From contig JAPJBO010000195.1 of the NCBI GenBank assembly GCA_030068145.1, positions 1 to 64,000 on the forward strand: a stretch of DNA of 64,000 bases, read 5' to 3'. This stretch comes from Diplonema papillatum. Lineage: Eukaryota; Euglenozoa; Diplonemea; Diplonemida; Diplonemidae. The translations under genes and the position numbers were made by a program. Below the pieces are notes generated by a model. The model saw nothing but the letters and a program-made list of their open reading frames with translations, was not told the origin of the DNA and did no database searches. This document shows, in pieces, positions 28,902 through 61,950 of the stretch. Each line of letters begins with the position of its first letter. The first letter of the stretch is position 1.

Positions 28902-30953
28902 CTACACAAGGGGAGGGAGTCGTCGGTTCAACGGGTTGCCTCCTCTGCTGTTGCTGCCGCCGATGTTGGCGCCCGCGTGCGGCGTGTTGGGTGTGGAGTG
29001 CGTGGACGAGCTGTTCCCGGAGAAGGGGCTGACAGGCGGCAGCAGCGCCGAGTGATTGGCCGCCGACACGCCGAGGCTGTTCGTCGGCGACCGCACGAAG
29101 CGCGCCGGCGGCGAAAACGGGTCGGTCTCGCCACGCGCGAGCGACGACGACGCGACGCTGATCGACCGCGGCCGGTGGCTCCGCACCAGCGTCTGCTTCC
29201 TCGACACTGGCAGCCGCGGCCGCGTGAACGAAAGGTTCCTCGGCAGCTCCTGCGGAGGATACCCGTCAGCGGTGACCAGGGACCCGGACCTGCCGGCAGC
29301 GTACGTGCCGCCAAAAAAAGCAGGTGATTCTGTCCGCATGGGCGACCGAAACAGCGGGGACAGGATCGGAGTAACGGTGAAGTCGGCCTCCGGCGCGAAG
29401 TGAGACCGGGCCGCGGCGCTGTCGCCGTAGTTCAGCGGCTTGACCAGCGACTGCGTGCTCTCATTCCCCGCTCTGCTGGCGACCTCCCCACTGCTTACCA
29501 TCCGGTGCGCCAGCATCGGCTTGCTGATAGTCGCTTCGCACTCGTCGGGCACACCGTCCGCCACCTGATCCGCCAGCCTTTCCCGCCGTTTCGTGGACAT
29601 CACGTACAGCAGCGCGCCGACGTCGAGTACAGTCCGGATGATCAATAGAAACCCGGCGAAGGAAAAGCAGACGGATGCAACATCGAACCCCCAATCGGCC
29701 GGGTCGTCTCGGTAGTGGCCAATGGCAGTGCCGAGGAGGCCTGAGGACAGGACGACGGAAAAGAGCGTTTCGGCGACGTTGCTGTGGAAGCATTGGCACG
29801 GCTGGTAGTGGAGGTAGAGCCCGGCGTGGAGGACAGCGGCGAGAGCCATGGCGACCTGCTTGTGCCCGCAGGCAACGGGGTCCTCGACGGCGATCGCGGA
29901 GAGGGACGCCATGATGAGCAGCGCGACACACTCGACGGAGGTGAACTTCGCGTTTTTTGGCGTGAACCTCACGAAAACGGCTCCGAACCGGTACACATCG
30001 TCGCTGGCCTGACCTCCAGGAACCCACTCATACTTCCCAATCAGCCACCCCATGTGTGGCGACGTTTCCGCGTCCCACGCGTACACCGCCAACCCTTGGT
30101 CCACTGCGTACGACACGGCGCCGTGTAGCGCGAAGGGGAACGTCACCGACAGAAAGAGGCTCACGGTCCCGACGAACACGTACACAGCCGACGGGCCGCG
30201 GAGGATCAACGCCGCGCCGCACGACACGAAGCCTTGGTACAGGACCAAAAACGTGAAGATCGCGTACGCAGGGGGCAGGGGCACCCCGGCGAGGCGGAGC
30301 TTCGCGGATTTTTTGTTCCAAAAAAAGAACGCCGCGTGCAGCGCAGCGACCACGGCGACGACGCATCCGTTGCCTATGACGCAGCCCGCGACGCCGCCTA
30401 AGGACCCCGGGAGCGTGAGCCGTGTGGGGTGCAGGATGGACCCGGGATCGAACACCGGTTCGTAGCAGTGGCTGCTGCCTACCAGAGACAGGCGACCGGC
30501 GCCGAGGGCCCCGCCGCTGCCCATGAAGGCCAGGGCCACCACCGCTACCGTGTCCGCGAGCCCGAGAGTCGTCTTCGTCACCACTACAGGGTCCACCCTC
30601 TTGGTTTCGTTCGCAGGCGCTTCGGCCGGCCCGAACCAGGTCGCGAGCGAGTCGCTGCCGCAGGCTTCCCCGCAGCACACCTTCAGCTCGTCGTACGCGC
30701 ACACCCGGGCTCCCACGTCGTTGCAGGCGGCTTGCGCCGCCGCGAACGTAAGGTTATCGCCGTTGCCGGGGCAGGGGGCCGGCGCCGCCGGCGCCGCGCA
30801 GCCTCCCTCCAAACTGCAGCACCGCACGGCGGCCTGCGTGCTGTCCTCAACCAGCCCGGGGCCCGGCCCGCAGACCTTGGCGGCTTGGTGGACGGCCGCC
30901 CACGTCGGCGACGCAGCCGCAACCCATAGTACGCACAGAGTTTGGTATTTCAT
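28902..30953 (-). CDS. Gene A: secreted-entry, Cys-rich, multi-pass membrane protein
   Basis: An intact 683-residue frame. Residues 1-20 (MKYQTLCVLWVAAASPTWAA) are a signal peptide. Residues 25-108 form one Cys-rich module (RCC ... AAAQAACNDVGARVC-x4-EL-x3-CCG-x2-CG ... WF). About seven or eight hydrophobic segments follow (near 132-150, 185-211, 228-278, 338-385, 393-412 and 424-452). The tail (455-683) is Ser/Pro-rich, presumably cytoplasmic, and ends NPLNRRLPPLV. Gene B at 50856-46892 has the same architecture and the same first and last residues. The upstream flanks also match (AATAAACGC, A run, AGGATGT, ATG). I know of no function for the membrane domain; a surface protein is the inference. 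No introns are evident. Confidence 0.85.
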   Translation of the reverse strand: MKYQTLCVLWVAAASPTWAAVHQAAKVCGPGPGLVEDSTQAAVRCCSLEGGCAAPAAPAPCPGNGDNLTFAAAQAACNDVGARVCAYDELKVCCGEACGSDSLATWFGPAEAPANETKRVDPVVVTKTTLGLADTVAVVALAFMGSGGALGAGRLSLVGSSHCYEPVFDPGSILHPTRLTLPGSLGGVAGCVIGNGCVVAVVAALHAAFFFWNKKSAKLRLAGVPLPPAYAIFTFLVLYQGFVSCGAALILRGPSAVYVFVGTVSLFLSVTFPFALHGAVSYAVDQGLAVYAWDAETSPHMGWLIGKYEWVPGGQASDDVYRFGAVFVRFTPKNAKFTSVECVALLIMASLSAIAVEDPVACGHKQVAMALAAVLHAGLYLHYQPCQCFHSNVAETLFSVVLSSGLLGTAIGHYRDDPADWGFDVASVCFSFAGFLLIIRTVLDVGALLYVMSTKRRERLADQVADGVPDECEATISKPMLAHRMVSSGEVASRAGNESTQSLVKPLNYGDSAAARSHFAPEADFTVTPILSPLFRSPMRTESPAFFGGTYAAGRSGSLVTADGYPPQELPRNLSFTRPRLPVSRKQTLVRSHRPRSISVASSSLARGETDPFSPPARFVRSPTNSLGVSAANHSALLPPVSPFSGNSSSTHSTPNTPHAGANIGGSNSRGGNPLNRRLPPLV

Positions 30954-32021: not shown

Positions 32022-32250
32022 ATAATGTTGTAACGGTCATACCGTTATATAACGTTCTATAACGTTATAACGGTCATACCGTTATATAACGTTATATAAC
32101 GTTATATAACGTTCTATAACGTTATAACGGTCATACCGTTATATAACGTTGACCGCAAGGTATGCGGTCAATGACCGCATAACTTTCTCAGATGACCGGT
32201 CAAAAACTGACCGGTCAAACATGCGGTCATGACCATGACCGTAGGGGGGG
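32022..32250. repeat. TATAACGTT / GACCGGTCA palindrome-rich element end
   Basis: About eight overlapping TATAACGTTATAACGG, CCGTTATATAACGTT and TTCTATAACG units (32022-32150), then GACCGCAAGGTATGCGGTC, GACCGGTCA pairs and ATGCGGTCATGACC (32150-32240), stopping at a G run. These short iterated palindromes resemble the inner ends of the other TIR elements. No matching opposite end was found. Confidence 0.6.
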
Positions 32251-32254
32251 GGGG

Positions 32255-32565
32255 CAGTGCTGATACTAAGCCTGAGACCCACCTGCAGGGCCTGTGTGCA
32301 GCAGGGTGGTGACCGCTCGAAGGTGGTTTCCTCAGCAGCGACCAAGAAAAAAAAATTTTTTTTTGGCCCAAATCCTCCCAAAAAAGCACTCGAAAAAAAA
32401 GATTTTTGACCCACTTTTTCCACCATTTCACCTTCGAGAATTTAGCTAAGGTGGGTCCCACAGTAGGTCCACAGTGGGTTGCACCAGGAGGGGGGGGGGG
32501 GGGGTACCCACCCCCACCCAGGGTTAGCAACTTCGTTTTGGGTCGCAGGCTTAGTATCAGCACTA
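32255..32565. mobile_element. Type-a TIR element, about 310 bp
   Basis: Ends AGTGCTGATACTAAGCCTGA (32256) and CGCAGGCTTAGTATCAGCACT (ending 32565), with G/C runs outside. The interior is unit X: GGGCCTGTGTGCAGCAGGGT ... GCACTCGAAAAAAAA ... GGTCCACAGTGGGTTGCACC ... GGTACCCACCCCCACCCAGG. Unit X also occurs inverted at 32580-32785 and direct at 58230-58436. Confidence 0.7.
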
Positions 32566-32579
32566 CCCCCCCCCCCCCC

Positions 32580-32866
32580 TGGTGCAACGGACTGTGGACC
32601 TACTGTGGGACCCACCTTAGCTAAATTCTCTAAGGTGAAATGTGGAAAAAGTGGGTCAAAACTTTTTTTTTCGAGTGCTTTTTTGGGAGGATTTGGGCCA
32701 AAAAAAATTTTTTTTTTCTTGGTCGCTGCTGAGGAAACCACCTTGGAGCGGTCACCACCCTGCTGCACACAGGCCCTGCAGGAGGGGGGGGGGACCCACC
32801 CACCCTCGTTGCCGTCCGGCTGACAACGATGCCGAGTTTAGGGGCCTTAGCATCAGCACTGGGGGG
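32580..32866 (-). mobile_element. Inverted unit X ending in a type-b TIR
   Basis: The inverse of unit X (GGTGCAACGGACTGTGGACC ... CCCTGCTGCACACAGGCCCT), followed by CCGGCTGACAACGATGCCGA and GCCTTAGCATCAGCACT, the type-b end also seen at 58129 and 4653. With 32264-32490 it forms a hairpin with arms of about 200 bp. Confidence 0.7.
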
Positions 32867-32886
32867 GGGGGGGGGGGGGGGGGGTC

Positions 32887-40248: not shown

Positions 40249-41748
40249 CTAGGTAACGGCCGATGCACCCTCGGGCTGGGAGTGGGGGTCTCTGTTCGCT
40301 CTTCTGTTTGCATGGTGCTTCGGGCAGCAGCTGGCTAATGCTTCGTTTGCTACTACGCAGTCGCCGCAGCGTCCTAGTCTGTGTGCTGTGCAACAGTGCA
40401 TCCGCGGCCTTAGACCATCCGATCCGTGATGATGCTGCTTGAGGCGACAGCAGGTCTCCGCCGGTAGGCGCTTTTTGACGCACTCCCTGCATCGCGGCTT
40501 CCTGTGATGCGAGCAAACCACTCCGGGGCGGGAGGTATTCACCGCGCCTTCTGGGGCCTCGAACGGGGGGGCTCCTTCGCACGGTTCCGTGCTTGAGCTT
40601 CTTCCTGCCGCTTCAGCCTTCGTCTTCCAATCCGGCTTTCCCTGCGTCCACCCTGCCGGATAGGCCTCCTCTGGCAAAAAAGTTGCGGCCCATCCCAGGT
40701 GCGGAGGGAACGGGCTGTTTTCTTGTTGGTCTGGCCGATTTTCTCGTGTGTGTTCGCGTATCTTCATGATCACATCCTCGGTCGCGGTCAATAACTGTGC
40801 ACGCCTCGAAACACCCCGCACAACCGTTCCTCCCACAGATGTCAAAACGGTGGTGGAGTATTCATGGCCGCAGAACCACGGCTGTGCAACCACCTTCCCA
40901 TACGCCTTCCCCATTTCGATGAGGCTGAGCGCTTTTCCTAGACCGGACCGACGGAAGTTTGCCAGCATGGTCTCTTGTTGCTGCCGGGTGGGCCTTTGGC
41001 GTTGCACCAGGTCCATGGCGGCGTTGCTGAGCGCGTCCGCGTCTGTGTTCTGCTCCCGCGCAACGTGCTCAATGTGCAGTGTCAGCCGTCTCTGCAGGGA
41101 CGACACCTTCAAGGCCGCGCGCGTCAGATACGGCTTCAGTTCCTCTGAACATGCCATGCGTCGTGCGAGGTGCCCGACAACCAGCGCCGAGTCGCCTCGC
41201 ACCGTGCATTCCTCTCCTTCCGCTTCGCCTGCATCCCCCAGCAGGTGCAGGCCCGCTAGCAGTCCTTCGTACTCTGCTACGTTGTTGCTGCGCACGGTCG
41301 GCAGTGGCAGGACCACTTCTGCCACTTTCACTCCATCGCGGTACACGACTGCCCCCGCCCCGGCAACGGCGAAGGCGGTCCCATTCGCTCTCGCCCCGCC
41401 ATCGAAATAAACCAGGAGCCTGCTGTCTCCCATTTCCCGGGCCGGTAACGTAGCGCGGGCTGCCGTTGCCTTGCCTGTTGGTGCTTGTGGAGGAGCTGAG
41501 TAGAACCTACTCTTCAGGTCAGGGAGTCGCCGTCCTGTGTACAGCTCGAAATCCACTGCCAGTTCGATGAAACTGGTTCCCAGCTCATCGTGCCCTGGGG
41601 GGGCCCACTTTGTCTGCTGCAGCCAGTCGGTAAATGCCATCCACATCTCTTGGCCATATTTCCACTTCGTTCCGACGGCGGAAGGTGCAATGGCAGGGAC
41701 CGTGAGTCTGTGTGGTTCTGATGGCTTCCACCCACGCGGGTAGTCCAC
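40249..41748 (-). CDS. C-terminal part of LINE-type retroelement protein: RNase H plus Cys/His fingers
   Basis: A 499-residue frame. Residues 35-77 hold FTDWLQQTKW ... FIELAVDFELYTGRRLP, also found in the 2.4-kb TIR elements. Residues 110-250 are an RNase H fold with all acidic residues visible: Asp116 (VYFDGGARAN), Glu161 (AEYEGLLAGL), Asp186 (RGDSALVVG) and Asp236/238 (NTDADALSNAA). Two Cys/His-rich fingers follow: CSHHRKPRCRECVKK ... CC (412-434) and CCTAHRLGRCGDC ... CCPKHH (452-479). No RT or endonuclease precedes it; coding sense is lost within 100 bp upstream, at the GT microsatellite. It is best read as a 5'-truncated LINE-type insertion whose last ORF segment is intact. An RNase H gene of another retroelement is possible. 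Confidence 0.65.
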   Translation of the reverse strand: MDYPRGWKPSEPHRLTVPAIAPSAVGTKWKYGQEMWMAFTDWLQQTKWAPPGHDELGTSFIELAVDFELYTGRRLPDLKSRFYSAPPQAPTGKATAARATLPAREMGDSRLLVYFDGGARANGTAFAVAGAGAVVYRDGVKVAEVVLPLPTVRSNNVAEYEGLLAGLHLLGDAGEAEGEECTVRGDSALVVGHLARRMACSEELKPYLTRAALKVSSLQRRLTLHIEHVAREQNTDADALSNAAMDLVQRQRPTRQQQETMLANFRRSGLGKALSLIEMGKAYGKVVAQPWFCGHEYSTTVLTSVGGTVVRGVSRRAQLLTATEDVIMKIREHTRENRPDQQENSPFPPHLGWAATFLPEEAYPAGWTQGKPDWKTKAEAAGRSSSTEPCEGAPPFEAPEGAVNTSRPGVVCSHHRKPRCRECVKKRLPAETCCRLKQHHHGSDGLRPRMHCCTAHRLGRCGDCVVANEALASCCPKHHANRRANRDPHSQPEGASAVT

Positions 41749-41835
41749 GGTCCTGTGATGCCTGGCGGACCTGTCAAGCAGGCCGTCTGCTTCCTGACGT
41801 CGAGTTAGGACCTCGACGAAGAAAAGGTGTAGCCG

Positions 41836-41955
<120 letters not shown>

Positions 41956-42007
41956 GTTTTCACTATCCCGTGGAAAGAAGACTTTAAACTAAGTTTTTGT
42001 TTGCTTG

Positions 42008-46891: not shown

Positions 46892-49800
46892 TCACACAAG
46901 GGGAGGAAGCCTCCGGTGCAACGGGTTTCTGCTTCTTCCTTTGCTGGGAGCATCGTGCGGCGTGTTGGGGGCGGAGAGCGACGACGAGCTGCGCCCGGAG
47001 AAGGGGCTGGGCGGCGGCAGCAGGGTGGAGCGGTAGCTGACGTCGAGGCCGGGGTTTTCGCGGTGGTCCCTCGGCGTTCTGGTCGAGCGTGTCGGCGGCG
47101 AAATGGGGTCGGCTTCCATGCGCGCGAGCGACGCGACGCGGATGAAGCTGGGCCGGTGGCTCCTCGACAGCGTGTGCTGCCTCGACGCGGGCAGACGCGG
47201 GCGGCCGAAGGACGTGTTCCGCAGCGGTTCGGTGGGCGTCCCGCCGTTCGCGACCGAGAAGGACCCGGAGCCGGCTGGCACGAACGTGCTGCCGAACAAG
47301 GGCGACTCGTCTATGGTCGATCGGGAGAACGGAGACTGCACCGGGGTGGAATTCGCCTGCGTCGTAGAGTCAGCACGGTAGCAGCTTACCAGCGGATTCA
47401 GCGGGGATTCGCTGTTCTGGCCAGCCATCTCGGCATTGTCCACCTCCTTGGGGTGGGGGACGGGGTCCTCCAGTATCGGCTTGCTGCCTGTCGATTCGCT
47501 GTCGTCCGGAGCACCATCCGCAACCCGGTCAGCCAACCGTCCGGACCTCTTCGTGGCGACCACGTACAGCAGCGCGCCCACGTCTAGGAGCGTGCGGACC
47601 ATCAGCGTCACGCCGGCCACAAAAAAGCAGACGGACCCGAATTCGAACCCCCAGGCGCCCGGGTCGTTGCGGTAGTGCCCGGCGGCGCCGCCGCCGAGAC
47701 CGGCCGCGATCGCCGCCGAAAACAGCGCTTCGGTTGCGTTGCTGTGCACGCAACGGCACGGCTGGTAGAAGAGGTAGAGCCCGGCGTGCAGCGCGGCGGC
47801 GGCGGCCATCGCGGCGTGCTTGTGCCCGCAGGCGGTGTGGTCCTCCACGGTGATCGGCGACAGCGACGCCATGATCAGCAGGGCCATGCACTCGACCGCG
47901 AGGAAGCTCGCGTTCCCCTCGGTGAACCGCACGAACAAGCAGCCGAATCGGTACAAATCCCTGCTCCCCTTCCCCGGAACCCACTCGGACCTTCCGATAA
48001 ACCACGCAGCGCGCGGTGACGTTTCCGCGTCGTTCGCGTAAACCACCAACCCCTCGCTCGCCAAGTAGAACACGACCCTGTGTACCGCGAAGGGAAACGC
48101 CAGCGACAGCACCAGACTCGCGATACCGAAGAGCACGTACATAACAGAAGGCCCGCGGAGGATCAACGCCGCGCCGCACGACGCGAAACCTTGGTACAGA
48201 ATGAGAAACGCGAAGACGGCGTACGACGGGGGCAGGGGAATGCGGCTGGTGCGCAGCAGCGCGCTGCTGCGTTGGACGCAAACATCGAACACCGCGTGGA
48301 TGGACGCAAGCGCGAGGATCACGCAGATGTTGCCGACGATGCAGCCCGCGACGCCTCCGAAGGCGCTCGGCAGGTACAGGCGCGTGGGGTGCAGGATGAC
48401 CCCGGGATCGAACCCGACGTCGTAGCAGTGGCTGCTGCCCACCAAGGACAGCCTCCCCGCGCCGAGTCCGCCGGAGGTGCCCATGAACGCCGCCGCTACC
48501 GCCGCGACCGTGTCTGTTTGGCCTAACGTCGCCTGTGTCACAACCTCGGGGTCCACCCGTGACGTCTCGTTCGCAGGGGGTTCCATCGGCGGTGCGTCAG
48601 TTGTTCCGGTTTTCAACGGGGGGACCTGTGTTGTCGTTGATGGTGCATCGGTGGCTGGTGCATTGGTGGCTGGCGCATCGGTGGCTGGTGCATTGGTGGC
48701 TGGTGCATCGGTGGCTGGCGCATCGGTGGCTGGTGCATTGGTAGCTGGTGCATCGGTGGCTGGCGCATTGGTAGCTGGCGCATTGATGGCTGGCGCATTG
48801 GTGGCTGGCGCATTGGTGGCTGGCGCATCGGTGGCTGGCGCATTGGTAGCTGGCGCATCGGTGGCTGGCGCATCGGTAGCTGGGGCATCGGTGGCTGGTG
48901 CATCGGTGGTGGCGCAGCTGGCGCATCGGTGGCTGGCGCATTGGTAGCTGGCGCATCGGTGGCTGGCGCATCGGTAGCTGGTGCATTGGTAGCTGGTGCA
49001 TCGGTGGCTGGCGCATTGGTAGCTGGCGCATCGGTGGCTGGCGCATTGGTAGCTGGCGCATCGGTGGCTGGTGCATTGGTAGCTGGCGCATCGGTGGCTG
49101 GCGCATTGGTAGCTGGCGCATCGGTGGCTGGCGCATCGGTAGCTGGTGCATCGGTGGCTGGCGCATCGGTGGCTGGTGCATTGGTAGCTGGTGCATCGGT
49201 GGCTGGCGCATCGGTGGCTGGTGCATTGGTAGCTGGCACATCGGTGGATGGTGCACCGGTAGCTGGCGCATCGGTGGCTGGCGCATCGGTGGCTGGTGCA
49301 TTGGTAGCTGGCGCATCGGTGGCTGGTGCATTGGTAGCTGGCGCATCGGTGGCTGGTGCATTGGTAGCTGGTGCATCGGTAGCTGGCGCATCGGTGGCTG
49401 GTGCATTGGTAGCTGGTGCATCGGTGGCTGGCGCATTGGTGGCTGGCGCATCGGTGGCTGGCGCATCGGTGGCTGGTGCATTGGTAGCTGGCGCATCGGT
49501 GGCTGGTGCATTGGTAGCTGGTGCATCGGTGGCTGGCGCATTGGTGGCTGGCGCATCGGTGGCTGGTGCATCGGTGGCTGGTGCATTGGTAGCTGGTGCA
49601 TCGGTGGCTGGCGCATCGGTGGCTGGTGCATTGGTAGCTGGCGCATCGGTGGATGGTGCACCGGTAGCTGGCGCATCGGTGGCTGGTGCATTGGTAGCTG
49701 GCGCATCGGTGGCTGGTGCACCGGTAGCTGGCGCATCGGTGGCTGGTGCATCGGTAGCTGGCGCATCGGTAGCTGGCGCATCGGTTGTTGGCGCATCGGT

Positions 49801-50856
49801 GGCTGGTGCATCGGTGGTGCTCCCGTTAACATCGCAACGATCACCCACCCACCCAGGCTGACAGCCAATACAGTTGTAGGCCGTCCCATTCCAGCTACAG
49901 ACGCCGTGAACACACTCCTTCCCACAGTTGTCAAACCAAGCGGGCGCGTCATTGAAGTTGCAACCCGTCCCGCAACACAGACCACTCGATATCTCGTCGT
50001 GCGAGCACAGCCTTTTACTGATCGCCTTGCAGATCTCCGCAGCTTCGATGATCGTCGTGTTGTCGGCACAAGTCGGTGTGTTACTGAAACACGTCGTGTC
50101 GTCGCAGCAGCGTACATTCGAGATTAGAGCCTCAACCGTAGGGAACGAATACGTCGTCCCGCTGCAGCCGTCCATCGATCCGCGGCCTAATTTGTCGCAG
50201 TTCACACCCTGCCACTTACCCCAGCACTCGCACTCATAACCAACACCGTCAGTACTGCAGTCTCCGTTTGCACAGGGCCCTGGCGCGCACTGATCGTACC
50301 AAACGGGAACGGCATCAAACCCGCAACTGCCGCCGCAGCAATTCGACGTAAGCTCTTCGAGTGTGCACATGCGGAGCCCTTCAGCTTCGCAGGCGCGCTG
50401 CCCTCCGTAGAAATCGGTCATCGCGCCAAAACACCCCGTAAGGTTCTTATCCGTGCACGTTCCCGCGTCGCCGCAGCATCGGAGAGCCGCGTTGCCTACA
50501 GAAACGCCACTGGTCGACGAGGGGCAAACATCAGCCGCATAGTGCGGCTCGAACCAGTTGGCCCAAGAGTCGTAACCGCAGCCTTTTCCGCAGCAGAGCG
50601 ACAACTCGTCGTGGACGCACACCCGGGCTCCAACGTCGTGGCAGGCGGTTTGCGCCACTTCAAACGAAATGGTACTCCCGGGACAGATCGCGGGTTGCAT
50701 GCAACCTCCTTCCAAATTGCAGCACCGCACGGAAGCCTGCGTGCTGTCCATAGGAGGCCCCGTACTTTGTCCGCAGACATCGGCGGCTTGGCGGGTAGCC
50801 GCCCACGTCGGCGACGCAGCCACAACCCATACTACGCACAGGGTTTTGTATTTCAT
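46892..50856 (-). CDS. Gene B: modular surface-type membrane protein with pentapeptide stalk, one frame break
   Basis: Reading leftwards from ATG 50856: signal peptide (MKYKTLCVVWVVAASPTWAA); three Cys-rich modules (about residues 25-103, 108-187 and 229-310), each with G-x-R-(V/M/L)-C-x4-E-(L/I) ... CCG-x2-C(G/N); two EGF-like modules (about 188-221 CAPGPCANGDC...CECWGKW; 310-342 CGKECVHGVC...GCQPGWVGDRC); a long ATDAP/ATNAP repeat stalk; then the multi-pass domain and Ser/Pro tail shared with gene A, ending NPLHRRLPPLV. A one-base loss at about 48907 inside the repeat separates the two halves; the downstream half remains open and in the TDAP frame (STTTQVPPLKTGTTDAP...). It may be a true mutation or an assembly error in a repeat. 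The product would be about 1,300 residues. A surface receptor or adhesin is a guess. Confidence 0.78.
48640..49830 (-). repeat. 15-bp coding minisatellite: ATDAP / ATNAP pentapeptides
   Basis: About 78 units of GC(C/T)-ACC-(GAT/AAT)-GC(G/A)-CCA on the coding strand. Units alternate irregularly in blocks such as TDAP-TDAP-TNAP that themselves recur, so the array grew by block duplication. Because the period is 15, other frames on both strands also stay open (MHQPPMRQ..., VAGASVAGA...); these are shadows. Thr/Pro richness suggests an extended O-glycosylated stalk. Confidence 0.95.
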
Positions 50857-51074: not shown

Positions 51075-51209
51075 CACACGTCTGGCTGTCCAAAAAGACT
51101 TCCACTATTTGATCCTGCTACTGTTCGGCTACCCGGAACCTTTTTTATTATTCGATAAATCGAATAAGAACACAGGGGTGCATGTTATTACTCGACCCCC
51201 CCCCCCCCC
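51075..51209. mobile_element. Right half of a small TIR element
   Basis: ACACGTCTGG ... ACTATTTGATCCTGC ... CGATAAATCGAATAAGAACA, CAGGGGTG, TTATTACTCGACC and 15 C. It is homologous to 3640-3745. The C run ends exactly at the first CTAG junction of the chain. Confidence 0.55.
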
Positions 51210-51372
51210 CTAGGGCTAAGTTGGATGGAAACGCCGTTTCTTTTAGTTTTTTCGAAATATGGAAACGGAAACGGAAACGTTTCCGTTTCTTTTAAAAGAA
51301 ACGCCAGAAGGCTCCTCGTGCTGAGGGGTCCTATAGGATACCACTTCGCGGGTCCTTCTGTGTGTCCGTCGG

Positions 51373-53139
51373 GTGTCCGTTTCCAGCCAAATTTTGGCTT
51401 TCCTTTCAGAGGGCGGGATCACCTTCTTCCTATTTGCTCGTCTCAGATCGCCGACGAAAGAAAGCGGTGAGCATCAGCGACTGCTCTGCACAAACGAGAC
51501 CGCGACGACACACAAGAAGGGGCCGAGCCAAGTCGAAGAACAGCCCAGAAGAGGGAGCAGCGTATATTCCATGATCGACAGAGGCCACAACCCACGGATA
51601 CTATACGCACCCTGGAACGCATGGCTCACTGAAGAATTCTGCAACCTGCCACGACTCCACAGCCAACTCAAACCGTTCCTTGGTTTCTGCATCGCCCGAC
51701 ACAGAGCACAGAAACCACGCATCAACGAACCGGAGTACGTCGGCAAACACAGACCGACTAATTTCTTCCCAGCCCACTTACCGAGCGAATCACCATCCTC
51801 CGATGACAGCCTCGTTGCTGTCATCACCATCGCCGCAGCAGTAGCAGCCAAAACGAAGCGGAAACACCCACAGCAACTTCGCAAATACACGACAAGGAAC
51901 TCTTGCTTCCTGCAAGCGTCGCTAAACCTCATAGCAGCGACACACTTGTCAAACCAAGTACGCAAGTACACCGACTGTCCTGAACACCAAACAGGACCAT
52001 GCACCCAAGACGTGAACGAATGGATAAGCGGCAGGAAACCCCAGAACGTCGTCCAAAGACTCTTCGAGCACATGGACACGCACCTCGGCGACGGAGAACA
52101 ACACGACCTAGAAGAAGCCTTGCTTCAACTACTCGCTACGATAGCGAACGAAAACGAAGAACACCGCACGTGCCAACCAAACTGCAGCGACGCCTTCAAC
52201 GAATTGCTACACCTACAGACGACAACAATCCATTGCAACAACTGCGGTTACGTCAAAACAGAAGATCAACCCTACAGCATAACAATCCTCGCAATACAGG
52301 CCAACACCGCTCAAGGATGTCTGGACAGTTTCTGCAAGAAAAGCACCCCCAAAGATTACAGATGTGACAAGTGCAAAAAGACAAAGACGGCAGAAACGCA
52401 AACCAGTATCCGAGCAGCACAAGACACATTACTACTGTGTCTTAGACGGAACGAGTTCGCAAACGAAAATCGAACCCCAGTGGCAGCTGATCCCACCCTC
52501 AACATCCCGGACTACGAACACAAATACGAACTCCAAGCTGTAGTAACACACACTGGAAGAGAGAACGCTGGCCACTACACCATCCACAAACGTAACCGCA
52601 CCCCTTTCACAGATCAAAACTGGACGCATTGCAACAACGAAAGTACTTCACACTCCCGGGAACCTACGTACACAGACAACACCACATACATGTTCCTGTA
52701 CACGAAAGAAGTCCTCACCGACACGGACCCGACACAAACACTCGAACTGCTCGAAGAACTGCGAGGGGACACCCCTACCTCAGACGACGAGACCTCATCC
52801 GAAGAAACAACACAACATGAAAGAACGCTTATTTGGACATGCCCAGCCTGCAAAGCAAGTACCACGGACGCAGGCAACAAGTTCAAAGGCGCCAAAGGCC
52901 TCCGTACACACATGCTACACTGCAAAGAGATGACTCTAGCAACAAGCCCAGTACGGAAGGCGGCGCAGAAAGCCCTCGGAAAACGCAAATGCCCATACTG
53001 CAACAACGACGGACGGACCGCAGGGAAAGCGCGCTTCAAAAGTCTACGCCACCATATCTCAAAATGTAAGAGAAACCCAGCGGTATCGCACACGCTCAAG
53101 GCTACGAAAAAGAATAAGGAAAGTAAGCGAGGAACCTAA
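51373..53139 (+). CDS. Ubiquitin-specific-protease-like protein with C-terminal zinc fingers
   Basis: An open frame of 588 codons; the first ATG is at 51571, an upstream GTG at 51373. Numbering from 51373, the Cys box is NSCFLQASLNLI (Cys178 as nucleophile), a zinc ribbon is CNNC ... CDKC (288/291 and 331/334) and the His box is ENAGHYTIH (His401) with a downstream Asn421 region (NWTHCNNES), ending in YMFLYT. These are peptidase C19 hallmarks. An acidic Ser/Thr linker (SDDETSSEETT) precedes two fingers: CPACKAS...GLRTHMLHC and CPYCNNDGRTAGK...SLRHHISKC, then a Lys-rich tail. The finger pair recurs at 16745-16294. The gene lies wholly inside a TIR element and is A-rich on the coding strand, unlike its surroundings. 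It probably removes ubiquitin or a relative from an unknown target; the start is uncertain. Confidence 0.78.
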   Translation: MSVSSQILAFLSEGGITFFLFARLRSPTKESGEHQRLLCTNETATTHKKGPSQVEEQPRRGSSVYSMIDRGHNPRILYAPWNAWLTEEFCNLPRLHSQLKPFLGFCIARHRAQKPRINEPEYVGKHRPTNFFPAHLPSESPSSDDSLVAVITIAAAVAAKTKRKHPQQLRKYTTRNSCFLQASLNLIAATHLSNQVRKYTDCPEHQTGPCTQDVNEWISGRKPQNVVQRLFEHMDTHLGDGEQHDLEEALLQLLATIANENEEHRTCQPNCSDAFNELLHLQTTTIHCNNCGYVKTEDQPYSITILAIQANTAQGCLDSFCKKSTPKDYRCDKCKKTKTAETQTSIRAAQDTLLLCLRRNEFANENRTPVAADPTLNIPDYEHKYELQAVVTHTGRENAGHYTIHKRNRTPFTDQNWTHCNNESTSHSREPTYTDNTTYMFLYTKEVLTDTDPTQTLELLEELRGDTPTSDDETSSEETTQHERTLIWTCPACKASTTDAGNKFKGAKGLRTHMLHCKEMTLATSPVRKAAQKALGKRKCPYCNNDGRTAGKARFKSLRHHISKCKRNPAVSHTLKATKKNKESKRGT

Positions 53140-53149
53140 CTTCACCATC

Positions 53150-54370
53150 CACGGCTGCCTCGTGCAGCTAGAGAACCCCGACTGTGGAGGACAACAAACA
53201 GTCAAACAAGGAACTTTCTAAAAAAAAAAAATTTCTCATCTTACGTCTGTAAGAGTAACACCGAACAATAGCCTACGCTACTTCCACTTCTTCGAGCCAA
53301 CGAGCCTCCATGCGAACAGCGCAAGCATAACCTCTGTCGCCCAACCCCTCCAACCACCCCCCCGTACCCCGAGGACAACCCTCAAAACCCCAACTCCCCT
53401 CCCCCCCTTTTTTCCTTATTTTTTTCTCCCCCAGTTTTTTCCTTTTTTCCTCCCCTACTCCGTACCTCGTAACACACAGCCACCGAGCAACACGAAACCA
53501 CCCAGAAGAAAAGCCAGGCACCGGGATCTTCCTGACGAGCACGCGACCCGGTGAACATAATCAAGAGTCGAAGATTAGCGTCGAAACTTCCTGGCTTTTC
53601 ACGCCGCAGCAGAACGACCACACCCTACCCAAACCCAAGCACCCTCTAAACGCGTTAGGGGACTTCACAAGGTTTCACAACGGAGTGACACAACACCCGA
53701 AACGAGTCGCACTCTTTTACTTTTCTCAACCCCCCGCCATACCCAAGCCTCTACGGTCAACCGGAGACTTTAAAATACCGACCTTCTAATCCACAAATAA
53801 CGCTAGGAAACCACAAGCTAATGATGCAGAATGTCGTTACATGCGGATGCTGAGGTTTTCTGGCACCAGATTCCACTCTTCTGTGCCTACCACTTCGTCC
53901 TCTGCTGCTTCCAACCCACGTTCTCATGTTTACTTGTATCGGCGGCCGTGCCGCGTGGGGCTTTTTGAATCTGCAGTCCTCTTCTGCATTGTCGGTGGTT
54001 CTTCCTGCCGTCGCTGTCTATGCTCCGACAACACCGCCCGATGGTGCCCCTTCCGGTGACGGTTGCCACCCGTCGTTGTATGCAAGGTGCACTGTGGCAA
54101 TCGATGTTTAACACACACGTTACTGCGTGGCCATCGCTTTTCTGGCGGGTTCAACATTGCCCCGGCATACGTGTGCCCTTCTCACCTCTTGATGCTGCTT
54201 GCACTCCCTCTTTGTCTTACACCGCTGAAAACCCCGGTCTTGTAGCCTGTGGTGCGGCGGAGCTCCCGCTGTCCTTCTTTCCTCCCTCTTTTTCGGAGCC
54301 TCCTTGTCCATGGTTTCCCACTGGATTGCGGGGTCCGCCGTTCGGAACACATTTCCGGTCGGACCTTCAG
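53150..54370. other. Interior of chain element 1 downstream of the USP-like gene
   Basis: C-rich and T-rich low-complexity DNA (53380-53460). A weak match to the 83-bp repeat lies at 53757-53790 (inverse). Short plus-strand frames at 53841-54406 show no domain. Confidence 0.5.
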
Positions 54371-54696
54371 CCAGTATACCAGTGGCATACCAGCCGTTTC
54401 TTTTGAAAAGAAACGGCGTTTCCATCCACCGCCAAAAAGAAGGAAACGGAAACGGAAACGGAAACGTTTCCAACGTTTCCATCCTACATAGCCCTAGGGC
54501 AGTGTTCCAGGTAAACGGTAAACGTTTACCGTTTATAAACGTTTACGTTACTCATTTTGGAGTAAACGTTGAGTAAACGTTGTGTAAACGTTGTGTAAGC
54601 GTTTACTGTATCAAGGGCGGCATCCACTGGAAACGCAATATATCAAGGAAGAGGGGCAACTAAGTAAAATATCCAGACGGACCTTTCGTCACAAAT

Positions 54697-54897
54697 GGCG
54701 AACAAGCGCAAAGGAGACGCCGGGAGGGGGTGACATTCACGGAAGCACCCGGATCGAAGATGCGCAAGGTAACCTGCAAGTTCTGCGATAAGGCCTTCTC
54801 CACCGCCTCTGCTGAGCACCTGCTCGGCCAAGGCAGCAGCATTGGCGGCTGCGCCCGCACAGGACTGAAGCCACGGTCAGGAACGAACGACCAGTAG
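54697..54897 (+). pseudogene. BED-type zinc finger fragment
   Basis: MANKRKGDAGR, then after a one-base shift GVTFTEAPGSKMRKVTCKFC and DKAFSTASAEHLLGQGSSIG-GC. C-x2-C ... HLL ... C fits a BED finger, the DNA-binding start of hAT-type transposases. Confidence 0.55.
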
Positions 54898-54904
54898 CCT
54901 TGTT

Positions 54905-55180
54905 AAACCCGATGGCTTCTTCGTAGAAGAAGTCCCTGATGGCTTCGTGGGCGTCCACTGCAGTGGTCGCTCGAGTGAGGAATGGCACCATATTCAGCTG
55001 CTTCGTCTTGGCTTTCTCGTTTTTCTTGCTGCCTTCAGCTTGACGACGAAGGCGGGTGTGTGCTACCACCATGGGATCTCTATCACCCCCAACGCCCGAA
55101 GAACTCGGTGGGGTGATGCTTGGCACCGCCATAAAAGAGATGGACAGCCTGATGGAACGTGGATTGTGCCAGGAGGCCAA
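54905..55180 (-). pseudogene. DUF659/hAT-like transposase fragment
   Basis: The minus strand reads EGSKKNEKAKTKQLNMVPFL and AHEAIRDFFYEEAIGFNKAT-GRSFL. The pattern A-x2-A-I-x-(R/D)-F-F-Y-x4-I-x-F-N-x2 ... S-F is the start of the DUF659 region that follows the BED finger in hAT-type proteins. Here it lies in the opposite orientation to the BED fragment, so an inversion has occurred inside the element. Confidence 0.5.
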
Positions 55181-55436
55181 GTATGGTCTAACCGTGCTCT
55201 GTAGGCGAGTAAACGTTTACCGCGAGTAAACGTAAACGTTTACCGTTTATAAACGTTTACGTTTACTCATTTTGGAGTAAACGCGTTTACTCAACGTTTA
55301 CCAGCTTCACTGCCCTAGGCATAGTGGTCAAACGATTCGCATGCGATAATAATTATCGCATTATCGCACAAGATTATCGCACATAATCGGCATGCGATAA
55401 TATGCGATAATCCATTATACTCTATTTGTACAGAGG

Positions 55437-55772
55437 ATGTACCCGGGGTTCCGGGAAAGCTTTGTGGGTTTCTCTGGGGTTTGTAGCAAGAGTGCTATGA
55501 GAACCTGTCCTTTCTGGCAACCACATCCAGATTCCGTTGCCGCCCCATCGATCGTGCCAGCTGGTACTACGACAGCTGAAGTTGTCCAGATGCTCCCCAG
55601 ACGCAAGAAGCACACTGGGGGTCTCCAGAGGACAGTGTCATTCTGGAACTTGACAAACCGCCGAAACAAGACCTACGAGGGAAGACCATGTTCGGCGAGC
55701 CCAGTGAAACAGCCGGAACCAACAAAAGCCCGGCGTGAGAGATGTCCACGCACCGGCACCAAAACGACTTAA
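55437..55772 (+). pseudogene. Coding-like frame in chain element 3, unrecognised
   Basis: 111 codons, containing RKKHTGGLQRTVSFWNLTNR and SASPVKQPEPTKARRERCPR. Basic; no domain recognised. It may be a captured fragment. Confidence 0.3.
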
Positions 55773-55794
55773 GCGTTGGTGACACGGGAGCCTC

Positions 55795-56530
55795 AGCCTT
55801 CCCCGGGAAGTGGCGTCAAGGTTTATGCTCTTTACGCTGCCTGGATACGCCACAAGGAGGACGAAACTGCTGTTAAACGGCATAGAAGCAGCTTGCCTCC
55901 AAGGACCGCTGGAACGAAGCCAAACCCGTGTGTCCGCAGGACGTACCCTTCGCTCAATGGAAATCTCATCAAGGCGTTACGTAGACCGTTGGCCGTGCAG
56001 TCACAAAGAAGAAGAGAGCCCACAGCACTACAATGCGCGATCCCCGCGAGGCGAGCTCACCCGCCAGCCAGAGATTGACATTGCAAGAGGCATCTGTCTG
56101 TCGTCGGGTTGCTGACGATGGTCTCGGCCATGAGTAGGGTACGGAAGTGGGTGCGAAGTCATGATATGGCAGGCGGCGCCCTACCAGTGCAAAGGTTGTT
56201 TCGTTGGACGACTTCCGGATGAAGCAGGAGAAAATACAAGGAACTGTGAGCTTGATAGACACCCACAACGTCACGGCACGGCCTACGGCGGCGGCTAAAC
56301 GCCTTGATGGGAAACTTCAGTTTCCATTGGGCGAAGGGTACGTCCTGCGGATACACGGGTTTGGCGTCGTTCCAGCGGTCCGAGCAAGCTGTTTCTATGC
56401 CGTTTAACATCACTTCTGTCCTCCTTCCAGCTGCAAAACGTGGGTGGTGTGTGAATCTCGGCATTGTACACCTTGTCGCCACTTCCCGGGGAAGGCTGAG
56501 GCTCCCGTGAGGCTCCCGTGTCGGCAAAGC
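55795..56530. repeat. Inverted pair of coding-like segments in chain element 3
   Basis: 55795-56000 (plus) and 56520-56290 (minus) are diverged copies: both read through GGGAGCCTCAGCCTTCCCCG GGAAGTGGCG..., TTAAACGGCATAGAA and GCAGGACGTACCCTTCGC. In the best frame both give DRWN(E/D)AKPV(C/Y)PQDVPFAQWK. Each has stops or shifts. The protein is unknown. Confidence 0.7.
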
Positions 56531-56960
56531 TTAAGTCGTTGATGAAGACAATGAAAGAGAGCTTGCACGTTTGTTGACCAAGAAGGGATCGAGCCATGCA
56601 GTTGTCAAGTTAGGTGATACTGGTAGTGGTCGGATGTCAGTTGTCGAAGCGTCACGGTAGCATGGCGCGAGTGAGAAGGGCTCACGACGAGCTCCGACGA
56701 GCTCCGCGGACTCGTTTTCTCACTTTCTGCGCCTGTCAAGCCATCCTGCCTCGCTCCGGGTGCCCCAAAGGATTCTGCGATAATGTGCGATAATCGTGCG
56801 ATAATCATTATCGCACATGCGATAATGTGCGATAATATGCGATAATACACGATAATATGCGATAATCGTGCGTTAATGCGAATGAAAATGCGATAATCGG
56901 CGCCAAAATCCCAAATGCGATAATATGCGATAATGCGAATCGTTTGACCACTATGCCTAG

Positions 56961-58112
56961 GGGGGGTCAATCTACTGTTTAAAAGTGTCCCAATGGACCA
57001 TTTTTCAACCTTCAAATATAACGACAAAGCCGGCTCCGAAAACTGGATTTTCGGGTGCAAAACACCAATTCTGCACGAAATACCGCTGGATGTGCACCCA
57101 ACGGGCGTTGAATGGTTGCTCAACAAGGGTGTCAAAAATGCTGTCCAAAGTCGTGCCACCCTTTTACCCCAGGCTACTTCAACCGCCAAAATTCACTTTA
57201 AATTCATACTGGGAGACCAGGAGGCCCTCATCTGCGGTGGAAAACACCAGCAAAAACGCTAGTTTGCTACGCCAGGCTAGGGGAGACTGAGTTTTACGAT
57301 CAAAGAGAGCATCACCGAGCTGCAGCCGTAAGTCAACGCTGATGCCTTTGTACGGCAAGGCAGTTGCAGCCCTGTCGCAGGATTAACCAGCTCCGTGCGT
57401 TGCATTTTCAAAAGAAGCCCCTCAGGTAGACGAAAGGTCCAGTTTGTGCCAGAAGGGGTGAATGCTGCTTCTGAATCGTTGCAAAAACATTCCTGTCGTC
57501 CTCATAGGCGGCACGCAGTACCGGAGAAGAGCTGCTCAGACCAATGTTCGTGCAGTTCTGGGACACGCTTTGTGGAAAGTGAGGAAGAAAAACGGTTCGA
57601 CATTTTTGCATGACGACAAGCACAGACGGTAGCCCCGCTGTCCCCGCTTTCCCTCGATCCGAGCCTGTCCTTCCCTCCTACACGTAGGAGCATCGTGTCC
57701 TTCAGCACTGCTGAAAGAAAATTCGAACCTACAGAGCACAATCTCACTCTAGCTGTTCTGCCATTATATGGGCGTCTCCGCGACCAATGAACCCCCTTTC
57801 TTCTTGTATTGGTGAGGCATGGTGCGCGAGACAAGCGTTTTTTTTCTACTTTTTTGCTGCCTGTGTGGTGGCCTTGAGCTGCATTACCACCCACCTTTTG
57901 CAATTCTGCGGTGGGGTAAAAGGGTGGCACGACTTTGGACAGCAATTTTGAATTCGCGTTTTATACTCGTTTTAGGGCTCTACACTCGATTTTAGGCTCG
58001 AAAACCCTGTGGAAATGACGGTGTGGGGTGCTCTACAGGGGGCCAGGTCCCCAGGAGGCCCTAGTATGATGAACTTTGAAAAATGCCCAATTGGGACACA
58101 GATTGACCCCCC
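56961..58112. mobile_element. Chain element 4 (1.15 kb)
   Basis: Between CTAG at 56957 and CTAG at 58113. Ends GGGGGGTCAATCT in inverted copies, continuing with GTGTCCCAAT...CATTTTTCAA and, further in, CTGTCCAAAGTCGTGCCACC CTTTTACCCC (57139 and its inverse near 57945-57905). The inverted ends are therefore about 200 bp with indels. The centre (57300-57890) has short frames only. Confidence 0.8.
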
Positions 58113-58440
58113 CTAGGCCCCCCCCCAAGTGCTGATGCTAAGGCCCCTAAACTCGGCATCGTTGTCAGCCGGACGGCAACGAGTGTGGGTGGGTACCCCC
58201 CCCCTAACCACCCCCCCCCTCCTCCTGCAGGGCCTATGTGCAGCAGGGTGGTGACCGCTCTAAGGTGGTTTCCTCAGCAGCGACCAAAGAAAAAAAAAAC
58301 TTTTTTTTTGGCCCAAATCCTCCCAAAAAAGCACTCGAAAAAAAAGTTTTTGACCCACTTTTTCCACCATTTCACCTTAGAGAATTTAGCTAAGGTGGGT
58401 CCCACAGTAGGTCCACAGTGGGTTGCACCAGGAGGGGGGA

Positions 58441-58967: not shown

Positions 58968-59149
58968 GGTACCCACCCCCATCACGGTGCACTAGTAAAA
59001 GTGAAAAAGGTGTTTTGACTAGTCATTTTACTAGTGAAAAAGCATGACTAGTGCACTAGTAAAAATGACTAGTGCACTAGTCAAAATGACTAGTGTCCTA
59101 GTAGAAATCCACCTGTTCAGAACCGAAATCTGGGCTGGTTTGTAAATTT

Positions 59150-60110
59150 CAGAGGGTCCCACCGCACAACTGTACCCTACCGTTGCGCTTGCTACCGTGT
59201 TCGGAATAATGTTGGACCGGGAAAAAGTCGAAATACTTTTCAAAACCCCAAAACTTGGGCCAAAAGTCCAAAAAGGTTCCGGTCCAAGTATTTTACAGTA
59301 GGGTTCACGCCCATAAGGAAGTTTAGAATCCGGGAATACGATAGGATATGATACATGTGGTGTCTACAGTCAAGGGCGCGCCCAAGTCCGTCAACAGCGC
59401 CCTACAACTTGGAGAAGGTGCTACTTTAGCCAGACTCAAGGTGGCGAGTCGCTGAGCGTAGTCGGCACGCGGCATCGCCGGGCCTTACGGAGCAGGGCCA
59501 GCGGCATGCGCGGAAGGACTCGACCTCGGCGAGCTCGCAGTGAAGCGAGCGTCGCTGAGTGAAGGCGACGTCCTGGCCGCCGAGTGGCGGACACGCGCGT
59601 TTTTGACGCGGTGGATGCCGACGACAGCGGGCTGCTGACGTTCAAGGAGTTGATCAAGTATAGCCGGTCCCGGACGTCGTGTTCCGGCATGCTCACCCGA
59701 GCTGCTTGTCTACGCGACCCAGGCTATGCCCATAGTCATGATCTGGCACCACGGGTTTTAAGAACAAACAGAAACCGACCGCGTACTACAAGAAACAGTC
59801 TAGAAACTAAAGGTAACCTGAACCAATTTGGACGCGTTTCGGCCCGGAATTCGGGAAGCTTTGAAATGTTCGTACATTCTGCCGGTCCCATCATTTGTGT
59901 AACGGAAACACGAAACGAGTGCAAAAGCTGCTTGGGTCAGACTTCAAAATACCGCCAAAAAGTGAAAATCCCAGGGAAAAGTCCAAAACTTTCAGAACCT
60001 GCAAAAAGTCCAAAAAGAAATTCTGGTCCAAAGAAATTCCGGTCCAATGATTTTCCGAACGCAGTTCCCAACGCGATTCCATACTGTGCGATAGACGAAA
60101 GCTGGGGGTC
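59150..60110. mobile_element. Possible element nested in element 7
   Basis: GTTCGGAATAATGTTGGACC (59198) and its approximate inverse GGTCCAATGATTTTCCGAAC (60042-60061) face each other. Outside them are CGCACAACTGTACC and GGTACAG-like partners, and inside them are CAAAAAGTCCAAAA-type iterations. GTTGGACC(G)/(C)GGTCCAAC strings recur at 63810-63890. Confidence 0.4.
59460..59700 (+). pseudogene. EF-hand protein fragment
   Basis: DADDSGLLTFKE (59611-59646) is a canonical EF-hand loop (D-x-D-x-S-G-x-L-x3-E), preceded by TRVFDAV and followed by LIKYSR. An upstream frame (EGLDLGELAVKRASLSEGDV LAAE) joins it after a one-base shift at about 59583. It presumably comes from a host calcium-binding protein captured by the element. 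No full domain pair is present. Confidence 0.6.
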
Positions 60111-61320
60111 AGTTGTCTGCCACGAGCGTCATTCAACAAAGCCAGGAATAAGTCACGATTACTGGTTTGTGTTTTGCGGCTGAACATGCAGACTGTGGTC
60201 CCTTTTTTGGTGGGCCGCCCACCCCCACTCTTCCCCCACAGGAATCGGGCTGAGTATTGAGTGCAAGTGCCATGAAGGCAGGCGAGCACCACGGCTGAGT
60301 ACGGGGAGTTTCTGGGAATTTGTTGCCTACTAGGAGTGTTATACAGCTTGCCTGCCTCATGCTCTTCCGCACATACTACTAGTCGCTCCCAATGCCCGAT
60401 AGACAGTGCGTTGTGAGTTCAAGCTACTCCGAGGCGGTGATTTATATCGTCGTATGTGAACAACCGAAGATGCGAAAGAAGCTGTTTCCACAAAAAGTAC
60501 ACCGGCTACGCGATTCACCGTGCGGTAGACCCGACGAGTAGAAACCAGAACCTGCTGGTGTCCCACCCGACGAAAGCTTAATGGTCGTCTGCACGTCCCG
60601 AAAAGACAAAGAAACGTGACTTCCAGGCATTCGAAATGCCCGGACAAAGCACCACGACGTGTTGACTGGCACACAACGCGCGCGCCACAGGCTACAAGAA
60701 TGGTTTTCCGCGGCGGCGTGAAAGAGGAAGTCTCCAAGCACGCAATGAGAGAGTGCCTCCAACACTAGAAAGCGGAGCACATAGCAGTGAGCAACTATTT
60801 GTGGAATGTGCACAACACAAAGCCTTGCATGCAAACAGTTCGCAGGCGGACAAAGCCAGCACCTGTTGCACATTCATGTTGGGAAGCTCGGCAAGAAGAC
60901 CTGCCGACCATCTCTCGTTTCTTCGTGGGTTTTAGGGAACCCACGAACTACTGTAAATGCACTGTGTCCGGTGCGATGCCAAGGCGATAGGAGCGCCATG
61001 AGCGACAAGCCGAATCTACGGACGAGAGTTTGAATGTGGTCGGAAGCCCGCATTATCCAGTGTCTGAGACCTGTCACGACATGTCTCTGACCTCACCGTA
61101 GGGATAGCACTGTCGTTTGCACTATGTTTGCTAAGCCATACAAGCTCAGGAACTTTCCAAGAAACCAACTAAAAAACCTCGCAACTCTGCCTGTCTCTCG
61201 CGAAAACTGGGGTTGCCCAGGTGGTTTGTGGTGTCTGGGCACCGGTGATCACGGTAGTGCCGTAAAACCCCTCGAAAACTCTCGAAACACCCAGGATTTG
61301 GGTCCAGGTTAGGTGGATTT
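60110..61320. other. Interior of element 7, no gene recognised
   Basis: Several frames of 60-140 codons occur on both strands around 60360-60990, but none has a recognisable domain. 61124-61200 reads KPYKLRNFPRNQLKNLATLP without further support. Confidence 0.35.
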
Positions 61321-61534
61321 TGTCTAAATCACTAGTCATTTTTACTAGTGCACTTGTCATTTTTACTAGTGGCACTAGTCATTTTACTAGTCAAAATTTT
61401 GACTAGTAAAACCACTAGTCAAAGTCAAAAAAGTCCTTGACTAGTGCACCGTGCACCCAGGGTTAGCAACTTCGTTTTGGGTCTCAGGCTTAGTATCAGC
61501 ACTGCCCCCCCGCCCCCCTTTACGAATACACGGT

Positions 61535-61690
61535 GCAGTAGTAAACTTGTAAAATGACCCTTGTACTAGTAAATTTACTAGTAAGAAATTTTACTAGTAA
61601 AATTTGCACTTGTACTAGTAAGATTTACAAGTGCACTAGTAAATTTTACTAGTGCACTTGTAAATTTTACTAGTGCACTAGTAAAAATTT
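61535..61690. repeat. CTAGT-rich element end, second copy
   Basis: ACACGGTGCAGTAGTAAACT (61535), then ACTAGTAAATTTACTAGTAA and TGCACTAGTAAATTTTACTA iterations. It resembles the left end of element 7. No inverse end is seen before the window edge. Confidence 0.6.
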
Positions 61691-61950
61691 CAAGTGAATT
61701 CAGGTGTTTTTCAGTCCAAAACAGTGTATTGTAGGGGGTTTTGCGTGAAAAATTGCGAGATTGAAAACTGGGGAGGTTTGGTCGATGTGCACTACCCCTC
61801 GGACTGCGTTGGGCAGGGTTGTTGGGAGCCTTGATGGGAATCATCTCCCCTGATATACAGCCGCGCCGTTGAAAAAGGATGAGAGGAGCAGCGCGCACCC
61901 AACTGGAACTGTGCGCACTGTCCAGCCCCTTTACCCTGAGACTTTTGTTG

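Follow-up and report, generated by a model that had tools for sequence, protein, structure and literature searches.

We analysed a 64,000-nucleotide stretch of Diplonema papillatum DNA (contig JAPJBO010000195.1, positions 1 to 64,000; hereafter the window), in which four transposable elements with terminal inverted repeats (TIRs), here called E1 to E4, stand end to end with one shared target site at each junction. The array lies in a poly-C tract, and it probably arose through successive cut-and-paste insertions into a single docking site that renews itself, a reading in which we place good confidence. The features of the array are given below, with the strand where one applies.

51196-51210: poly-C tract (C15), the left outer target, with TA directly after it
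51208-51215: CCCTAGGG, the left 8-bp target duplication of E1, assigned from the 8-bp rule at non-chain E1 copies and from the presence of CCCTAGGG on both sides
51216-54491 (+): E1, a non-autonomous member of a hAT family, 3.28 kb, TIR CTAAGTTGGATGG / CTATGTAGGATGG, GGAAACG subterminal repeats
51373-53139 (+): open reading frame (ORF) of 588 amino acids within E1, a ubiquitin-specific protease, apparently cargo
54492-54499: CCCTAGGG, common to E1 (right) and E2 (left)
54500-55312 (+): E2, a 0.8-kb miniature inverted-repeat transposable element (MITE), TIR CAGTG..., GTAAACG subterminal repeats
55314-55319: CCTAGG, the left 6-bp duplication of E3, inside the would-be right CCCTAGGG of E2, assigned from the 6-bp rule and the junction letters
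55320-56955 (+): E3, a 1.6-kb MITE, TIR CATAGTGGTCAAACGATTCGCAT, subterminal repeats TGCGATAAT
56956-56961: CCTAGG, the right 6-bp duplication of E3, overlapping the left end of E4
56958-58115 (+): E4, a 1.16-kb MITE of the pioneer class (family D), TIR TAGGGGGGGTCAATC, resident in the C tract; its class behaviour is taken from family C and its superfamily is presumed
58116-58126: GG-C9, the right outer homopolymer
58127-58180 (+): start of what had been called Element 5, being the AAGTGCTGATGCTAAGG terminus of an R-type MITE next to this C tract

The first-pass annotation of this DNA had described four TIR elements joined by a single CCTAGG per junction, and our analysis confirms this across 51210-58116. 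CTAG lies at 51210, 54494, 55315, 56957, and 58113, enclosed by CCTAGG at 51209, 54493, 55314, 56956, and 58112. Between each two successive sites there is a TIR pair, namely GGCTAAGTTGGATGG/GGCTATGTAGGATGG, GGCAGTG, GCATAGTGGTCAAACGATTCGCAT (24/24), and GGGGGGTCAATCT (13/13). Five CCTAGG sites, from 51209 to 58117, bound four inverted-end elements, and E1, E2, and E3 each have a subterminal repeat motif of their own. Within the window, CCTAGG shows no enrichment (9 observed versus 10.8 expected); therefore, the evidence for the chain is the pairing of the TIRs and its recurrence elsewhere. E3 is a foldback MITE, its inner part (55763-56540) forming a long imperfect inverted repeat whose arms are 88-95% complementary. 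With C15 to its left and GG-C9 to its right, the whole array lies in a C tract, and the GG at 58116 may be an old excision scar. A fifth chain member starting at 58113 did not stand up to inspection, as no TIR partner for that site was found within 20 kb in the window. Beyond it come GG-C9 and a AAGTGCTGATGCTAAGG repeat like the MITE at 32.2-32.9 kb of the window, and so-called Element 5 appears to be a MITE lodged in this same tract. What had been missed is the homopolymer in which the array starts and the existence of two classes, pioneers that make palindromes and followers that use them.

The ends of these elements were then searched for in the genome (271 Mb, 2910 contigs), giving 506 matches for the E1 right end, 420 for the E3 end, and 170 for the right end of family C, which is E4-like. 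Such 12- or 13-letter patterns can match by chance, and reversed-pattern controls gave 4 and 8 matches. Flanks were tabulated for the first 100 of the 506 E1 matches and the first 100 of the 170 family-C matches (13 of these rows were not element ends), and E3 flank letters were read for 80 of 100 listed rows; the counts below refer to these listed copies. The last letter of the family-C pattern excludes C ends adjoining E1. The families have the end types TAGGGGG..., CTAAGTTGG..., CAGTG..., and CATAGTGG..., and, in the copies read, the ends are constant and the neighbours differ. Around E1, these copies nearly always have CTAG and then, going outward, either poly-G or the terminus of another family; E3 shows the same pattern less regularly, with about one-third of its flanks otherwise. 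Chains read at length included G26-TA-D-TA-E1-TA-G11, C13-TA-E1-TA-C-TA-C19, and C18-TA-E1-TA-C-TA-C15. Mean pairwise identity was 97.4% among E1 MITEs (32 copies) and 97.3% in family C (10 distinct copies), which we read as recent activity.

The pioneer class (families C and D, the latter including E4) carries the TIR TAGGGGGGGTC, beginning TAGGGGG..., and is found in poly-C/poly-G tracts. Among 87 true family-C right ends, 61 lead into TA (or TAA) followed by six or more C, 2 lead into a variant, and 8 enter other elements or sequence. The arrangement is strongly polar: the pioneer C right ends meet TA-poly-C and TA-poly-G in a ratio of 61 to 3, and the 100 E1 right ends meet poly-G and TA-poly-C in a ratio of 29 to 0 (p ~5e-21 by Fisher's test, a guide value, since the listed copies are not all independent). 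The genome holds 5620 unbroken runs of C or G at least 18 letters long; by estimate, random sequence of this composition would be expected to hold <1 such run. In all 4 copies read of H691, an autonomous hAT family, the right end directly abuts a G/C run (C11, G11, C9 or longer, and a short G4), in support of homopolymer targeting by hAT elements in this genome. The pioneers C and D are presumably hAT-like. A hAT family of 904 amino acids was considered as the autonomous pioneer and rejected, because the similarity between its two copies is lost at 240 bp, far short of the CCCCCTA that one of them has. As a separate observation, R-type MITEs with the TIR CAGTGCTGATACTAAG, resembling CAGTGATGATAAAATT of H691, lie nested in each other's C tracts at 32244-32885, and 5 of 20 close relatives fetched have a lone TA within an internal C tract.

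Do pioneers bring the TA, or do they find it? A pre-existing TA in the C tract could be their duplication, in place of the first bases of their TIR. TA is indeed the commonest interruption of tracts of the form C8-two other letters-C8 (50 of 100 listed, 198 in total), and a C-TA-C tract is part of some R-type MITEs. However, when 20 of the 50 listed C8-TA-C8 sites were sampled, 11 were R-type MITEs, 7 were element junctions (2 known and 5 likely), and only 2 were neither. This count, 18 in 20, led us to reject the idea that lone TAs form a large store of empty targets or are scars of precise excision. With the sampled sites mostly occupied, against 5620 uninterrupted tracts, empty TA targets appear scarce outside R-type MITEs, and we regard a requirement for a pre-existing TA as rather unlikely. 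The sampled sites suggest instead that TA arrives with the pioneer, as the first bases of its own end, and that the pioneer's duplication is hidden in the tract.

Possible scars were also seen. At ten of the 100 E1 right ends, the flank is CC-G(1-4) followed by mostly C, and at a few E3 ends it is CGG, again followed by mostly C. At scar-like E1 copies where the left end was read (L123, L129, L130, L019, and L074), it is CCCTAGGG or close. These flanks are suggestive of a neighbouring pioneer having been lost with small inverted additions, as expected with hairpinned flanking ends. Hairpins on flanking DNA at excision have been described for the hAT enzymes Hermes and Kat1 (PMC4763223; this and the other papers are cited from excerpts).

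For E1, CCCTAGGG flanks both sides in 30 of 33 two-ended copies. Most of these loci were fetched by a query that included the left CCCCCTAGG, and the right flanks alone are free of this bias. Since, in addition, a palindrome cannot separate duplications of 2, 4, 6, and 8 bp, E1 right ends were relisted without that constraint. CCCTAGGG follows 71 of the 100, of which 28 continue with pioneers C/D, 29 with poly-G of at least 9, 13 with G4-8 and then other sequence, and 1 otherwise. The earlier proposal that a newcomer uses the target copy flanking its neighbour is right, and the targeting of junctions is strong. For a sample of 20 of the 29 right ends without CCCTAGGG, the expected left-end positions were fetched. 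Both ends were readable in 9 of these non-chain copies (the left end was not found in the other 11), and three of the nine have an exact 8-bp duplication, CCCCAAGC, GCCTGGGG, and TCTTAAGG, for which chance gives ~4e-13, again a guide value given that the copies are not all independent. The first two are without any TA. E1 thus starts CTAAGTTGG, ends CCTACATAG, and makes an 8-bp duplication, and the exact duplication at non-chain sites identifies the E1 chain junction as a shared CCCTAGGG.

E3 behaves differently. In 12 end pairs picked by eye from minus-then-plus rows within 2.1 kb, an exact 6-bp repeat was present in 5, CCTATG and ACTAGG among them, and none was longer than 6; the E3 copy at locus L067 has the duplication CCTAGA. 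E3 is a different system from E1, with a 6-bp duplication, and no standard 8-bp hAT. Since E1 is an 8-bp hAT and E3 duplicates 6 bp, closely related transposases do not account for all of these elements, contrary to a possibility raised earlier. In the window, the right copy of E2 read across E3 restores CCCTAGGG. As E3 splits this copy, the letters favour E2 before E3 if E2 makes 8 bp, and they fit E4 as the first arrival.

Elements could also have been joined after excision, as circles or concatemers, by recombination or end-joining and not by insertion into a neighbour's duplication. Homopolymer and palindromic ends could favour recombination, and the authors of the SaTar arrays discuss closed circles plus homologous recombination (PMC5907723). 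In contrast, E1 and E3 make ordinary duplications at solitary sites, 8 bp is a very short homology, and the junction letters fit duplications, including the 6 bp of E3 within a putative 8-bp copy of E2, which makes joining improbable. A shared TA (Tc1/mariner) or CTAG target, as first suggested, is wrong as the unit, this being 8-bp CCCTAGGG for E1 and 6-bp CCTAGG for E3. In its favour, all five window junctions have TA at their centre, and GG can be taken as the start of the TIRs, but the non-chain E1 copies repeat all 8 bp even where these are TA-free (CCCCAAGC and GCCTGGGG), E1 encodes a hAT transposase, and E3 repeats 6 bp, so that this target is rejected for E1 and E3 and Tc1/mariner-type elements are very hard to sustain here. 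Scarcely credible is one large composite element moving the contiguous, spacer-free 51-58 kb array as a unit, because E1 and E3 recur elsewhere with the same ends beside varied neighbours, and no second four-element order was met among the loci read, no search having been aimed at that order.

The transposase supports the assignment of E1. A full-length autonomous copy of 3.7 kb, with CCCTAGGG on both sides, lies at G000:C13:537124-540830. Its ORF of 650 amino acids matches DUF659 (E=6.7e-11, 42.5 bits, cut-off 34.7) and Dimer_Tnp_hAT (E=9.7e-7, 28.9 bits, cut-off 21.4). The zf-BED score of 17.7 bits is under the cut-off of 20.6; a string CLLH in the ORF is a candidate for the CxxH motif of the catalytic core. 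A PDB sequence search with this transposase gave no match up to E 1. Together, the hAT domains and the 8-bp duplication make membership of the hAT superfamily well supported. Such dimerisation domains are abundant in this genome (150 matches scored of 851 candidates) and gave 0 matches in 14 control genomes.

From the ends of the autonomous element, the E1 of the window retains ~112 and 140 bp, and it carries the ubiquitin-specific-protease ORF instead (UCH, PF00443, E=4.6e-15, with a Cys/His-rich tail). Codons 1-61 overlap ordinary E1 sequence, and codons 62-588 have no match in other E1 copies among the loci read; gene capture by a hAT is possible. A related fragment lies at 16393-16662 (-), with 45% identity, and immediately beyond the autonomous E1 on C13 there is a further UCH match (L036:3-773). 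Twenty ORFs near chains were scanned, giving 1 hAT lead and 3 other families (BPL_N, zeta-toxin/AAA, and UCH), and 16 had no match at E 0.05. One ORF between two chains (L073:5557-6510, +) has a zeta-toxin/AAA kinase-like Pfam match (E=9.4e-11) and is likely an ordinary host kinase-like gene.

We propose that the array grows by a target relay. In a first step, a pioneer (here E4; TIR TAGGGGGGGTC...GACCCCCCCTA) would land in a poly-C tract; its occupancy of such tracts is observed, and its insertion there is presumed. The outer TA is most likely the pioneer's own end, and its duplication would be invisible within the homopolymer. The TIRs are inverted and the tract has a single direction, so that only one of the two junctions becomes a palindrome, C..CCCTAGGG..G. 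In a second step, followers would land at this palindromic junction, for which they have an observed preference, E1 as an 8-bp hAT at CCCTAGGG and E3 at 6-bp CCTAGG. In a third step, each follower would leave the palindrome on both sides, so that the next may land at either edge. In other words, the array would accrete with no element broken and with one shared site per junction. Since the followers E1, E2, and E3 sit at the palindromic end and rebuild it, the chains grow there. Regarding the fuller, two-tier scheme, we lean slightly toward it: homopolymer-seeking pioneers would make a palindromic dock on which at least two unrelated follower systems have converged, and by renewing it these would create self-extending safe havens in which neither elements nor genes are broken.

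Several observations weigh against the three-step account. Thirteen of the 87 family-C ends enter C without TA, which we put down, as an assumption, to slippage. No pioneer transposase was found among the sequences read. No pioneer duplication is readable in the homopolymer, and at the single C-poor site where a pioneer was inspected, its flanks are unlike. For E1, 29 of the 100 right ends are without CCCTAGGG; among the nine readable non-chain copies, five have no duplication and one is a base off (CCCTAGGG/CCCTGGGG). Of the 12 pairs of E3 ends, seven lack an exact match over 6 bp, 3 of them by one mismatch and 4 by more. The insertion order rests on one locus, at which the timing of E1 versus E2 is not readable. 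Finally, CCCTAGGG is not over-represented genome-wide (3120 occurrences versus 7904 for the reversed word). The clustering of its sites counts in favour of the account, as 23 of 49 have another within 2 kb versus 4.5% expected (the first 50 listed sites, leaving out a single site on C6). As the word is not over-represented and E1 uses it away from pioneer or poly-G contexts in at most 14 of the 100 right ends, the wider C/G context seems to matter.

Our reading has implications beyond this locus. Non-nested arrays of unrelated transposons had been reported from plants with no consensus on how they form. The junction letters offer a mechanism for them, namely insertion into a neighbour's own target copy, with a hAT that makes strong use of a palindromic target and one element building the target of another. 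The system is possibly a natural model of safe-harbour insertion, and the polarity rule yields quantitative predictions.

Elsewhere in the window, arrays of CACTAGTNAAAATGACTAGTG-like palindromic repeats face each other at 59019-61700 and are probably another MITE of follower design with its own motif. An ORF at 40252-41988 (-) has an RNase H-like reverse-transcriptase-associated domain (RVT_3, E=4.8e-9) and is likely a retroelement remnant. Two related secreted or membrane-like genes lie at 28902-30953 (-) and 46892-50856 (-), the second with a long APATDAPATNAP repeat; the parts of them scanned gave no Pfam match at E 0.01.

In grasses, MITE multimers of the Tourist and Stowaway type arise when elements land in or beside other elements. 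According to PMC5907723, insertion into existing elements is commoner there than adjacent insertion, and the excerpts of that paper describe neither a homopolymer pioneer nor polarity. KolobokP multimers (PMC9587614) are likewise tandem arrays of a DNA transposon; however, their units belong to a single family and have a long terminal direct repeat in common, whereas here unrelated families share a target site. E1 resembles the hAT superfamily (Ac, Buster, and Tip groups; PMC3942097) in its dimerisation domain, 8-bp duplication, short TIRs, subterminal repeats, and 3.7-kb autonomous copy. It differs in its strong palindromic target CCCTAGGG at array junctions, and H691 differs in ending at G/C runs. 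The target preference is nTnnnnAn for Hermes (PMC10368747) and slight for hATx-6 (PMC8721813). A literature search of open-licence PMC papers gave no account of hAT chains at CCCTAGGG among the results listed.

Among published systems, as far as the excerpts go, the closest precedent is the SaTar arrays of guayule and rice (Valdes Franco et al. 2018; PMC5907723), which involve Mutator-like elements (MULEs) with 10-bp duplications, are microsatellite-linked, and have a mechanism that was left open. In both systems, TIR elements that are unrelated and for the most part non-autonomous line up in unbroken linear arrays at simple-sequence DNA, and in both the members also occur singly, with ordinary duplications. 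SaTars, in contrast, are often without clear duplications and have microsatellite linkers. Membership of the SaTar (MULE) group was rejected for our array in view of its 8- and 6-bp duplications, as opposed to ~10 bp, its hAT gene, and its linker-free window junctions. Here, a hAT of 8 bp and a 6-bp family abut on one palindromic site, which is seeded by poly-C/poly-G, with no linker at the junctions of the window.

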